A stretch of DNA of 64,000 bases from Acetomicrobium sp. S15 = DSM 107314 (GTDB lineage Bacteria > Synergistota > Synergistia > Synergistales > Thermosynergistaceae): the NCBI RefSeq assembly GCF_016125955.1, contig NZ_JADEVE010000273.1, forward strand, positions 62,001 to 126,000, read 5' to 3'. Below the pieces are notes generated by a model, which was not told where the DNA came from, did no database searches, and saw only the letters and a program-made list of their open reading frames with translations. This document shows, one piece after another, positions 44,468-48,829 of this stretch. Positions within the stretch are counted from its first letter, which is position 1. Each line of letters starts with the position of its first letter. The translations under genes and the position numbers were made by a program.

Positions 44468-45634
44468 ATGAAAAGAGTGACGGTTGGCATAGCAGGCAGC
44501 GGTTTCGTGGCCGATATCCACGGGAAAGCCTACAAAAGGGTGCATGGTGTTGATGTGAAGATTAAGGCCGTTGCTGCCACGGGGAGCAATATGCCGCGCA
44601 CCGAGGCTTTTATGACGCGCTTCGGCGTGGAAGATTTCTATGATGACTTCGACGAATTGCTGAAAGATCACGAGATCGACGTGATCGACATATGCACTCC
44701 TGTCTATCTGCATGCCGAAATGATCGTCAAGGCTTTGGAGGCGGGCAAACATGTCATCTGTGAAAAGCCGCTCACAGGTTATTGCGGTGAAGGCGGCGAA
44801 GAAGAGCCTATAGGCAAGAACGTATCCAGGGTAAAAATGCACGAGGCGGTGCTCGCTACCGTAGAGCGGATCGGCGAGGCTGTCAGGGAAAGCGGCAGGC
44901 TCTTTATGTATGCCGAGAACTGGGTATACGCCCCTGCCATACAGAAGGCAGTCGAGATCATAAAGAAAGCGGGAAGCCACATCCTTTTTCTAAAGGGGGA
45001 AGAGAGCCATAGCGGTTCCCATGCTCCTCATGCTGCCAAGTGGAGCATGACTGGCGGAGGCGCACTGATACGCCAGGGATGTCATCCCTTGTCAGCGCTC
45101 TTATATCTTAAACGGGCTGAACGCGACAGTATGGGAGTAAAAGAAGTGGTGGCTGATGTTGGAGTCTTGACCGAAGGGCTGCCTTCCCAGAGGAAGCGCT
45201 TTATCGAGGCCAGCCCTATGGATGTGGAGGATTGGGCCATCGCAAGCCTCACATTTAACGACAATACGAAGGGCCTCGTCATAGCGGGGGATGTCGTCTT
45301 GGGGGGGACGCGCAACATAGTTGAACTATATTGCGACAACGGCGTCGAGATCTGCAACATTGCCCCTAACGACGCCATGCTGACCTATTTCCCCGACCCG
45401 GGTTTCTTGAAAGACGTCTACATAACTGAGAAGGTGGAGACCAAGGGAGGTTGGCAGAGCGTATTTCTCGAGGAGGAGCTCATGAGGGGTTACGCCTGGG
45501 AAATACAAGATTTCATGGAATGTGTCGTCACTGGCCGCGAGCCCATATCCGGTTACGAGCTCGCTGCCGAAACGGTCAAGGTCACCTATGCCGCCTACCT
45601 TTCGGCCGAAGAGGGGCGAAGGGTGAGGTTATGA
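44468..45634 (+). CDS. Gfo/Idh/MocA family NAD(P)-dependent oxidoreductase
   Basis: 388 residues. The N-terminal Rossmann motif is [20 protein letters not shown]; the conserved EKP lysine is in [18 protein letters not shown] 25-30 residue acidic, glycine-rich insert ([20 protein letters not shown]) follows, and the catalytic histidine is likely in [17 protein letters not shown]. It oxidises or reduces a sugar or cyclitol derivative. It lies directly after tctA and overlaps the next flavoprotein gene by 4 bp (ATGA), so it may act on the acid carried by TctCBA. Confidence 0.9.
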
Positions 45635-47514
45635 ATATCTCTAAAACTGAATGCGATGTGCTGGTGGTGGGTTCGGGCGGAGCGGCCCTGAGGGCTGCCA
45701 TCGCCGCTAAGGAGGTCTCCCCGCAGGCGCGCGTCCTGGTCCTCACCAAAGGCGAATTGGGGAAAAGCGGCGTGACGGCGAAAGCGTGTTCCGACAGGAT
45801 GGCTTTTCACGCCACGCTCCCTTATACCGAGCCGGGTGGCCCCGATAATTGGCGATATCATGCCGACGATGTTTACCGCATGGGCGGATATGTCTCTGAC
45901 GAGGATCTGGCCGAAATAATGGCGCGCGAATCTGGATCGGCCCTGGAGTATCTCCTGAATTTGGGCGTTCCTTTCGTCAAGAGACCTGACGGCAAGGTGG
46001 ACCAGTTCGTAACGGATGGCTCCGAGTATGCGAGAGCGGCCTATACCGGACCCTACACCGCTGTAGACATAGAACAAGCTCTGGTTAAGAGGGTGCGCTC
46101 CTTAGATATAGAACTTATGGAGCACCGCGCAGCTGTCTTTCTTCTTAGAGATGGTTATGAAGATAAAGTGATGGGCGTGGCAGCTCTGAACGAAAGGGAT
46201 CCCAGAGGGGAAGCGCTGGATATCGTTTATGCAGCCGCTACGGTGCTCGCTACGGGGGGTGGAGGGCAGGTTTTTGCCCTCAACGTCTTTCCAGAGGAGA
46301 ACACCGGAAGCAGCTACGGCATGGCTTTGAACGCAGGGGCCGAGCTCGTCAATATGGAGTTTATCCAGTTTGGCGCGGCCTCCCTTGCGACAAATTTTAA
46401 CTGCTCGGGGAGCATGTTCCGCGCTCTTCCCAGGATTGTCGACGAAGACGGCAGGGAATTTCTGATCGACTATTTCCCAGCAGATACTCCCTTTGCTCAA
46501 ATTTACGACATCCTGTTTCGCAAGGGTTCCAGCTGGCCCGTATCGTATGAACACGATACTCGCATTGTAGACGTGGCCATATACAAAGAGATAGATAAGG
46601 GGCATAGGGTCTTTCTCGACTACGCCGAAAATCCGCGGGGATTTAGCTTTGAGTTATTAAGCGAACGCAATCGCGATCGTTATACGGGCGAGATGCGCCA
46701 AAACTTGGGTGAGGAGGCGAGGCGCGCTTCGCCGTTAAACAGGCTACGCGAGATCAATCCCCAAGCCGTGGAGTGGTTTGAGGAGCGCTGGATCAACCTA
46801 TCCGCAGGGGAGAAGATAGAGGTGGGGATATGCGCCCAGCACTTTCAGGGAGGGGTGAAGATCAGAGAGCGCGCCAATTCTTCGCTTTTGGGGCTTTACG
46901 CCGCCGGAGAGTGTGCGGGGGGTCAGCATGGAGCCAACCGCCCCGGGGGGCATTCCCTTTTGGATTGCCAGGTCTTTGGCAGGATAGCGGGCGAAAATGC
47001 GGCGACAGAATCGCGAAAACTCAAAAAACTTCCCATTGTAAATGATACGTTACTGCGAAATTCATTGGAGGGGCTCGAAGACTTAAAAGGCAGAAGAGGA
47101 CTTGCGGCATCTCAAGTCCGGCGTGAGATTAAAAAGATAATGTCTCGCTCTGCTTCAGTCTTTAGAACCGAGCGGCGCCTTGTCGAGGCTTTAAGAGAAC
47201 TCGATGCATTAAGGCGCGAAAAAGTAGCGCAGGACGAAGCGGGGCTTGCCTTCGCTGCAGAGACGGTTTTGATGTTTCCCTTGGCGGAAACGATTTTAAG
47301 GGCATCTATCACAAGGGACGAAAGCCGCGGTCCCCATCTGCGCTTTGCTTCAGAGGAAGATATAAACCCCATCCCTCGCGACGACGAGGCCTGGCATAAA
47401 TATATCGTCATACGGCGGACCGGCGAAGGAGAGATGAAGATAGAGACGAGGAACCCCATCACCACTGGCAACAGCGCTATTTTGGAGAGGCAGAGGCGCC
47501 ATGGCCGTCCGTGA
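45631..47514 (+). CDS. FAD-dependent oxidoreductase, fumarate reductase/succinate dehydrogenase flavoprotein-like
   Basis: 627 residues starting at ATG 45631, which overlaps the upstream stop. The FAD motif is [38 protein letters not shown] is the substrate/FAD-loop region; [13 protein letters not shown] and [20 protein letters not shown] with [15 protein letters not shown] complete the FrdA/NadB/Aps-like fold. No iron-sulfur subunit gene adjoins it. It has no signal peptide, so it is cytoplasmic. Its end overlaps the start of the OYE-family gene by 14 bp. Together they could form a flavin reductase for an unsaturated acid. The substrate is unknown. Confidence 0.87.
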
Positions 47515-48829
47515 ACCCTTTAACTTCAAGTCGTTGGAGGAGTTAAAAGCGAAGGCGTCGCTTTTGGGCGCGGAGGTGCATTTCAGCGACGACCTATCAA
47601 GCTTGGCACAGCCGTTGCACTTGAAGGGGCGCAATGTCCACAACAGGCTCGCCGTTTTACCCATGGAGGGGCGCGACGCCACCGCTGACGGTAAACCCAC
47701 GGCGCTCACCTTCAGACGATACGAGCGATATGCCCGTGGCGGAGCAGGTCTTATATGGCTTGAAGCCGTTGCTATACATCCAATGAGCAAAAGCACAGAT
47801 CGTCAGCTTTGTCTGACCTCCGAAAACCGAGGGGATTTAGCTCGCCTGTTGAACGCAATGCGAAACGCCGCTGCCGACGAGTTGGGGCACGTTCCCCTGT
47901 GCATCCTCCAGCTTCACGATGCCGGCCGGTACAGAAAGGCTAAGGGCACAAAGCCTGCGCTGGTCGTCGGCAATCCGTATCTGGATCCGAGGGTTGGCAT
48001 ACCTCCTGGCATACCTCCCGATGCCCCGCTCCTTTCCGATGAGGAAATAGAGGCCATGGAGGGGTTATACGCCGATGCCGCCTCTTTGGCACAAGAGGCC
48101 GGTTTCGACGGCGTCGACATAAAAAGCTGCCATCGCTATTTGGTCTCTGACATGCTTTCCGCCTTTCTGCGAAAGGGGCCTTACGGCGGGTCCTTTGAAG
48201 GGCGCACGCGCTTTCTCCTCGACGTCGTTAAGAAAATTAGAATCGCAGCGGGCGATGACTTTTTGCTGGCCGTGCGCCTCAACCTCTATGACGGCATTCC
48301 GTATCCTCATGGTTGGGGCGTAGACAAAGAAAACCCTCGCGTCCCCGATTTAACCGAGCCCTTGGAGCTCGTGCGCCGCTTGAAGGGCGCTGGAGTAGAT
48401 TTGATCTGTGCTTCCAGCGGAACACCCTATTACAATCCCCACGTCGGGCGCCCTTACGAGCGCCCGCCTGCAGGAGCGCTTCCAACGGATGAGCATCCGT
48501 TGGAAGGCGTATCGCGCGCTTTTGGCTTGGTCGAACGCCTACAGACACATCTTCCCGATCTTCCGGTCGTTGGATTTGCCTACACGTGGCTCAGGAACTA
48601 TGCTCCCTTTGCGGCCGCATCGAACATCTCGAGGGGAGCGGTTTCGTTGGCTGGCTTTGGCCGCATGGCCTTCGCATATCCCGATTTCGCCCGAGATATC
48701 TTAGAAAAGGGACATCTTGACGAGAAAAAGGTCTGCGTCTGTTGCAGCCTTTGCAGCGAGGCCATGGCCCAGGGCAGGAACACCGGCTGCTTTGTGAGGG
48801 ACAAAAATGTATACACAATATATCGCTAA
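47501..48829 (+). CDS. Old-yellow-enzyme-family oxidoreductase with C-terminal Fe-S cysteines
   Basis: 442 residues. TIM-barrel OYE marks are [67 protein letters not shown] and [11 protein letters not shown]. The C-terminus has Cys412, 414, 415, 418 and 430; the last step is C-x11-C as in the 4Fe-4S site of 2,4-dienoyl-CoA reductase, but the protein stops there and lacks that family's C-terminal FAD/NADPH domains (usual total about 650-690). The preceding FrdA-like flavoprotein may supply or take electrons. The usual substrate-binding histidine pair reads KSCHRY here. Confidence 0.87.

Follow-up and report, generated by a model that had tools for sequence, protein, structure and literature searches.

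A conserved gene module of an iron–sulfur old yellow enzyme and a FrdA-like flavoprotein, tentatively assigned to reductive sugar-acid metabolism

In Slackia, the equol genes are three contiguous ORFs encoding an NADH:flavin oxidoreductase, a short-chain dehydrogenase/reductase (SDR) and a succinate-dehydrogenase-like protein, as set out in PMC4381290. The bile-acid 7-dehydroxylation operon encodes two iron–sulfur (Fe-S) old yellow enzymes (OYEs) and, in rarer instances, the two halves of Fe-S flavoenzymes are separate proteins, both according to section 8 of PMC11574389. Here we describe a related gene pair from Acetomicrobium sp. S15 (DSM 107314), located in a 64,000-nucleotide stretch of contig NZ_JADEVE010000273.1 (positions 62,001 to 126,000, forward strand) that is referred to throughout as the window. 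The first gene encodes a FrdA-fold flavoprotein of 627 aa (45631..47514, plus strand; PF00890, FAD_binding_2, 7e-44; PF02910, Succ_DH_flav_C, 4.6e-15) and the second an OYE-barrel protein of 442 aa, a short form without FAD/NAD(P) domains (47501..48829, plus strand; PF00724, Oxidored_FMN, 2.2e-26). The ORF coordinates confirm that the two genes overlap by 14 bp (47501..47514, plus strand), as a preliminary description of this DNA had reported. The pair is a real and widely conserved module, found in several distant bacterial groups. On the account given in PMC4381290, the equol set (daidzein, dihydrodaidzein and tetrahydrodaidzein reductases) brings the same three enzyme classes together in one neighbourhood as this module does.

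Conservation of the pair and its dehydrogenase partner

A contig scan returned 174 relatives of the window OYE, and the best 80 (L023–L102), which are 42–58 % identical over most of the protein, were used as the set of loci for comparison. FrdA-like, SDR and medium-chain dehydrogenase/reductase (MDR) genes were counted in these loci by tblastn, since opposite-strand frames conceal some of them from the called ORFs, whose tallies (FrdA-like 47 and SDR 45 of 79) are too low. A FrdA-like gene was detected in 51 of the 80 loci, an SDR gene in 53 and an MDR gene in six, with 59 loci having one or the other dehydrogenase. The SDR gene lies between the OYE and FrdA-like genes in 41 of the 51 loci.

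Co-occurrence was assessed in two genome samples. The first consisted of 291 genomes from the class of Caldicoprobacter algeriensis (G062, the genome of L024), for which all OYE matches at 1e-60 were kept, including three weak ones (G167, G243 and G254). OYE and FrdA-like genes were each present in 53 of these genomes, with 48 genomes containing both, five each containing one alone and 233 containing neither. The two genes were on the same contig and strand and no more than 7.5 kb apart in 40 of the 48, with the OYE gene first in all 40. Five of these 40 gaps were under 200 bp and 21 were 767–1079 bp, approximately the size of an SDR gene. An SDR-cluster gene was called in 15 of 20 stretches from this class, with an opposite-strand frame at the same place in three more. 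The OYE and FrdA-like genes were on different contigs or strands in the remaining eight genomes, some of these separations perhaps being due to broken assemblies. The order in the window, with the FrdA-like gene preceding the OYE gene, is the reverse of that seen in this class and is shared by L023 and L031.

The second sample comprised 198 genomes from the class of L036, of which 23 had both genes, 15 the FrdA-like gene only, four the OYE gene only and 156 neither; for 14 genomes, OYE matches scoring no more than 262 bits were excluded, and keeping them would raise the OYE-only count to 18. Fisher values for co-occurrence were 3e-43 and 3e-16 for the two samples, uncorrected for the relatedness of the genomes, and a chance adjacency of the two genes is rejected by this co-occurrence. 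OYE and FrdA-like distances were also correlated across 64 loci (Mantel r 0.51, maximum 0.20 in 999 permutations), two of the 64 rows (L166 and L025) being the same locus. Conserved co-occurrence, suggested earlier as a check on the pair, is upheld by the genomes that carry both genes (48 of 291 and 23 of 198) and by the correlated trees. Frequent separation of the genes, which the preliminary description had named as grounds for refutation, holds in part, with no OYE in 15 of the 38 FrdA-bearing genomes of the L036 class.

In the window, the gene directly upstream of the pair encodes a Gfo/Idh/MocA-family dehydrogenase of 388 aa (44468..45634, plus strand; PF01408, 9.6e-23), whose NCBIfam matches, iolG and levoglucosan dehydrogenase, are both far under the cut-off. 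The last 4 bp of this gene are shared with the FrdA-like gene, and ATG 45631 was taken as the FrdA-like start because it matches this overlap, the ORF list beginning earlier at TTG 45451. One other locus, L094, has OYE, MDR, FrdA-like and Gfo/Idh genes in consecutive order. The window Gfo/Idh protein perhaps takes the dehydrogenase role held elsewhere by the SDR or MDR.

The two flavoprotein families

The 80 aligned OYE members comprise the window protein and those of the 79 loci with a called OYE ORF; L086 has none, so falls outside the 79, and was counted as short in the 80-locus tallies. Short OYEs without a diaphorase part were found in 30 of the 79 relatives, while the other 49 had a long form of approximately 880 aa with a fused, C-terminal NAD(P)H-diaphorase-like part. 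This part was scanned in one long OYE, that of L036 (L036:7992-10640), where it consists of Fer4_20 (PF14691) and Pyr_redox_2 (PF07992), a GltD-type module; a similar C-terminal part occurs in 48 other loci. The long OYE has the layout of a dihydropyrimidine-dehydrogenase-like electron chain on an OYE barrel. The window protein ends soon after its cysteine cluster, 12 residues past C430, and has no FAD/NADPH domains, exactly as first described, but calling it truncated was misleading since 30 of the 79 relatives share the short form. A decayed or truncated gene is ruled out, as the short forms are common and keep the four cysteines and the active-site motif. Two short forms (L037 and L079) sit in the tree among long forms from Planctomycetota, so the diaphorase part may have been lost on more than one occasion.

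Four cysteines of the window protein, C412, C415, C418 and C430 (48734..48790, plus strand), are present in every one of the 80 aligned members and are probable ligands of a [4Fe-4S] cluster. The preliminary description had listed a fifth, C414, which is present where stated but is not conserved (Cys in two of 80, the window protein included). The pattern CX2CX2CX11C was found in 76 of the 80 members in a fixed slice and the canonical CX2CX3CX11-13C, the motif given for Fe-S flavoenzymes in section 8 of PMC11574389, in none of the 80. The spacing had been noted as slightly non-canonical; it is one residue shorter than the canonical motif, and this is a trait of the whole family. Two other OYE matches, 32 % identical, were found in the source genome, and the canonical motif is present in its own paralogue of 644 aa (L002). 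A search of this genome at an E value of 0.001 returned no second FrdA-like match.

The OYE active-site motif, K208-x-C210-H211-x-Y213 (48122..48139, plus strand), was present in 80 of 80 members, with K208, C210, H211 and Y213 all invariant. K208 occupies the position of the first His in the H-x2-H-x-Y motif of Thermus OYE, and this replacement of the first active-site His by a lysine suggests an anionic substrate. An AlphaFold model of the OYE (mean pLDDT 91.3) had its closest fold match in 2-naphthoyl-CoA reductase (6qkg; Z 44.5, 1.9 Å over 359 residues), with matches to 2,4-dienoyl-CoA reductase (1ps9; Z 40.6) and trimethylamine dehydrogenase (2tmd; Z 40.5) that were tied with many plain OYEs.

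The FrdA-like proteins fall into two types: type A (the window, L023–L026, L028 and L031), with members 50–57 % identical to the window protein, and type B, with members 24–30 % identical to it. Residues invariant across both types in the family alignment include Q246, G248, S251, P267-R268, W302-P303, Q403-H404 and R437. We take the succinate dehydrogenase SdhA to have a flavin-linking His, and its dicarboxylate site to be formed by the His of FHPT, the TEG loop, the His of CHY and the Arg of HGxxR. In comparison with succinate dehydrogenase 7d6v, Gly47, which is invariant in the family, occupies the position of the flavin-linking His, the FHPT His is replaced by Gly248 and the TEG loop is not retained. 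Of the dicarboxylate-site residues, only R437, the Arg of HGxxR, is aligned and retained while H404 is one position off, in an alignment that is unreliable around the catalytic Arg. The AlphaFold model (mean pLDDT 89.1) has the full FrdA fold, with E. coli FrdA (1kf6) as its best match (Z 51.2, 548 aligned residues, 3.4 Å) and L-aspartate oxidase among the others. Sequence comparison thus places the protein in a clade of its own, with the FrdA fold and an active site that does not appear to be that of fumarate reductase; a true fumarate reductase was rejected on these active-site residues. No FrdB gene stands beside the FrdA-like gene, a statement about the neighbours examined, a search of the remaining genome not having been made. 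The pair is flanked by the Gfo/Idh gene and a TRAP system, in agreement with the original observation that no FrdB adjoins it.

A tentative reductive pathway and its alternatives

With the chances close to balanced, we tentatively read the Fe-S OYE, the FrdA-like protein without FrdB and the alcohol dehydrogenase as enzymes that act in succession, within a single reductive pathway, on a small polyhydroxy acid or related sugar-derived compound. We infer the direction of this pathway, the order of its steps, its electron donor and its substrate from the genes, their families, the invariant residues, the co-occurrence and the genomic context that are observed. The dehydrogenase (SDR, MDR or, in the window, perhaps Gfo/Idh) would interconvert an alcohol and a ketone. 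The OYE would reduce the C=C bond of an alpha,beta-unsaturated carbonyl, with FMN presumably supplying the hydride and Y213 the proton while K208 and H211 hold the substrate, by analogy with ene-reductases. Electrons would pass from an NAD(P)H diaphorase to the OYE through the C412/C415/C418/C430 cluster, the diaphorase being either fused, as in the long forms, or separate, as would be the case for the short form here. The FrdA-like enzyme would carry out a second flavin-dependent reduction, of another activated C=C bond or with reductive loss of a hydroxyl, as in tetrahydrodaidzein reductase.

The common theme of the neighbouring genes points to sugar- or hydroxy-acid catabolism. Over the 79 loci, KDPG-aldolase-like genes were found in 21, BNR_4-type genes in 13 and genes resembling the kinase of 2-keto-3-deoxygluconate (KDG) in 10, mostly in Planctomycetota-labelled genomes; the BNR_4-type protein of L076 had no match among solved structures at 0.01. 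Individual Bacillota-type loci carry UxaC beside the FrdA-like gene (L155), a GH106 gene (L029), a KDG kinase gene (L027), 2-hydroxyacid dehydrogenase genes (L027, L066 and L162) and a heparinase II/III-like gene near the OYE gene together with GH78 (L164). In L162, a gene for a PL33-like lyase lies between the OYE and SDR genes (E 1e-109 to 8r75, a structure tied to PL33 through the paper that reports it, PMC11848413). Between the SDR and OYE genes of L148 (L148:8465-9649 and nearby) there are genes for a URO-D family protein and, by inspection, a branched-chain-type ABC transporter, which hints at a different kind of substrate in some lineages.

The organic-acid setting first proposed for the pair is supported in the window by an adjoining TRAP transporter and sugar-acid-type genes, all on the plus strand. 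Directly 3' of the OYE gene is a TRAP transporter (48897..51716) with DctP and DctM above the cut-off (TIGR00787 and TIGR00786) and a DctQ-like gene identified by inspection. Upstream of the Gfo/Idh gene are three tripartite tricarboxylate transporter-like genes (TctC, TctB and TctA, by inspection; 41340..44452), with no NCBIfam match for the two scanned; the TctA-like protein clusters with one from L073. These are preceded by a gene for an IclR-family regulator (40473..41255; closest NCBIfam models BhcR and KdgR, neither reaching the cut-off) and a second TRAP transporter (37644..40466; DctP, DctM and, by inspection, a DctQ-like gene). Organic-acid importers are therefore dense here, with two TRAP and one tripartite-type transporter in approximately 14 kb of one strand (37644-51716). 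Further upstream, at 33306..37628, are two sugar-acid dehydratase-like genes, a D-2-hydroxyacid dehydrogenase gene and a zinc alcohol dehydrogenase gene (NCBIfam models including PGDH and Zn-dependent oxidoreductase, all below cut-off). The dehydratase-like genes belong to the enolase superfamily (33306-34439 and 35463-36575; NCBIfam, below cut-off) and differ from one another, the closest models being arabinonate/galactonate and talarate/galactarate dehydratases. They flank the D-2-hydroxyacid dehydrogenase gene, and the genes at 33306-36575 are likely to be a sugar-acid set of their own.

A number of observations weigh against a single reductive pathway of this kind. The window pair is adjoined by the Gfo/Idh gene and not by an SDR gene, the zinc dehydrogenase being approximately 8 kb upstream. 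The likeness to the equol and Bai systems is one of enzyme class. Among 36 OYE genomes chosen by hand from the 80 loci, a FrdA-like match at 1e-50 was found in 25 and none in 11, the latter being labelled Acidobacteria/Bryobacteraceae, Verrucomicrobia, Halanaerobiaceae, Arcobacter (one) and uncultured bacterium (one). Ten further stretches were taken around FrdA-like genes where the OYE was missing or unseen, five from the window's phylum (L171–L175) and the other five from L036-class genomes that have only the FrdA-like gene (L176–L180); an OYE gene was present in one (L172) and an SDR gene in eight, several of the stretches being short upstream. An SDR–FrdA pair with no OYE in the stretch was seen in seven of the ten (L171, L173, L174, L176, L177, L179 and L180). 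Lastly, in the Caldicoprobacter class the genomes with both genes showed no enrichment in GH88/105 (14 of 48 against 58 of 243; P=0.47) or in KduI (17 of 48 against 65 of 243; P=0.22).

The counts from the ten stretches indicate that the SDR–FrdA pair is the tighter unit and that the OYE can be missing. The OYE may be an addition to an older or separate SDR–FrdA unit. The OYE of L172, a stretch from a genome of the window's taxonomic order, is 52 % identical to the window protein and is encoded on the opposite strand from the SDR and FrdA-like genes, with 2-hydroxyacid dehydrogenase-like and tripartite-transporter-like genes also identified there by inspection. A FrdA-like protein was found in eight of 185 genomes from the window's phylum, the source genome included. 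In five loci (L029, L030, L039, L069 and L095), the FrdA-like gene is absent from the stretch and present elsewhere in the genome. Long OYEs in genomes with no FrdA-like match at 1e-50 were observed in L033, L034, L035, L038, L042, L053, L054, L057 and L084, and in these nine genomes the OYE must serve without a FrdA-like protein, unless the assemblies are incomplete. Two Halanaerobiaceae loci, from genomes without a FrdA-like match, encode an IclR regulator and an OYE (L073:1096-6826 and L090:552-4497), with a TctA-like gene also present in L073.

The absence of GH88/105 and KduI enrichment bears on a narrower explanation, in which the module is dedicated to catabolism of 4,5-unsaturated uronic acids released by polysaccharide lyases and the flavoenzymes reduce the unsaturated acid towards KDG. 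The PL33-like lyase of L162, the heparinase II/III-like gene of L164 and UxaC in L155 are consistent with this, as are the BNR_4-type (13 of 79), KDPG-aldolase-like (21 of 79) and KDG-kinase-like (10 of 79) genes. To our knowledge, however, the route from unsaturated uronates to KDG requires no C=C reductase, and no lyase is among the window genes scanned or read at 32–64 kb. A pathway through GH88/105 and KduI was rejected, there being no association in the 291 genomes. As neither family is enriched with the two genes, a specific role in unsaturated-uronate catabolism is not supported, and we consider this explanation rather unlikely.

The preliminary description proposed a complex of the two proteins, with one flavoprotein oxidizing a substrate and feeding the other through the Fe-S cluster. 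Gene spacing is in keeping with this, since the 14 bp overlap in the window has a counterpart in L031 and the gaps are 30–68 bp in L023–L026 and L028. The short OYE has no diaphorase and needs a donor, no FrdB lies beside the FrdA-like gene and the two trees are correlated (Mantel r 0.51). However, the FrdA-like gene also accompanies OYEs that bear their own diaphorase (28 of 49 loci with long forms against 23 of 31 with short forms), an SDR gene intervenes in 41 of 51 loci and FrdA–SDR stretches occur without an OYE (seven of ten). No OYE–FrdA or SDR–FrdA fusion was present among the called ORFs of 101 stretches (the window, L023–L102 and L147–L166), and a 978-aa frame in L070 had no second similarity; the lack of an OYE–FrdA fusion also speaks against a relay. 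The type A FrdA-like proteins form one clade in their tree while their OYEs do not (OYE node support 0.56). A separate diaphorase is suggested by one of 51 short-form stretches (L153), which has an NfnAB-like pair just downstream; the source genome has an NfnAB-like pair elsewhere (L104, NfnA named by inspection). This counter-evidence makes an electron relay between the two proteins improbable and is the reason for favouring successive-step enzymes with a diaphorase-fed OYE. The earlier two-protein interpretation therefore stands for the genes, the short four-cysteine OYE, the lack of an adjacent FrdB, the co-occurrence and the setting, but not for the relay.

It is highly doubtful that the pair is oxidative and dehydrogenates a hydroxy acid, in the manner of trimethylamine dehydrogenase and L-aspartate oxidase with the same folds, since the OYE retains the ene-reductase residues H211 and Y213 and many members come from Bacillota of anaerobic type (judged from genome titles), despite the CxxCxxC spacing shared with trimethylamine dehydrogenase and the fold match of the FrdA-like model to L-aspartate oxidase.

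Comparison with known systems

The OYE shares with the Fe-S flavoenzymes (2,4-dienoyl-CoA reductase, 2-naphthoyl-CoA reductase, BaiCD/BaiH and BilR) a barrel followed by a four-cysteine cluster. It differs from them in the CX2CX2CX11C spacing, in the lysine that replaces the first active-site His and in having long relatives with Fer4_20 and a GltD-like part. The window protein, ending at residue 442, also lacks the C-terminal FAD/NAD(P) domain of the DCR/BaiCD/DZNR type. The C-terminal half of the long OYEs resembles the diaphorase modules of GltD, NfnB and dihydropyrimidine dehydrogenase (PF14691 and PF07992 in L036), a half that the window OYE does not have. Trimethylamine dehydrogenase, which oxidizes amines, has the same CxxCxxC start to its cluster and a similar fold (Z 40.5), but its gene context differs. 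The FrdA-like protein shares its fold over nearly the full length with FrdA/SdhA and L-aspartate oxidase and retains the Arg of HGxxR. In contrast to FrdA/SdhA, it has no adjacent FrdB, has Gly47 for the flavin-linking His and Gly248 for the FHPT His, and does not retain the TEG loop.

None of the papers found by a search of the open-access literature describes this gene cluster. Because its composition is defined, its signature invariant (K-x-C-H-x-Y with CX2CX2CX11C) and its metabolic setting indicated, the module is open to testing by genetics and assays. It is possible, though doubtful, that it represents an undescribed reductive sugar-acid pathway extending across genomes labelled Bacillota, Planctomycetota, Gemmatimonadales and Bacteroidales as well as the window's phylum. 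Such a pathway would apply to carbohydrate-derived substrates the ketone, enone and reductive dehydroxylation steps by which, in the gut, equol is formed and bile acids are dehydroxylated. If so, the flavonoid- and steroid-reducing gene sets of the gut would be offshoots of a primary-metabolic toolkit. With a sugar acid as substrate, anaerobic sugar-acid catabolism would gain a reductive branch, and an origin for equol-type pathways would be suggested. In comparison with the equol set, the module is found in genomes labelled Planctomycetota, Bacillota and others, in many cases alongside sugar-acid genes, while in the window the OYE lacks the FAD/NAD(P) part and a Gfo/Idh gene stands in place of the SDR gene. 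The component folds are known, and it is the combination of OYE, SDR and FrdA-like protein that resembles the equol set.

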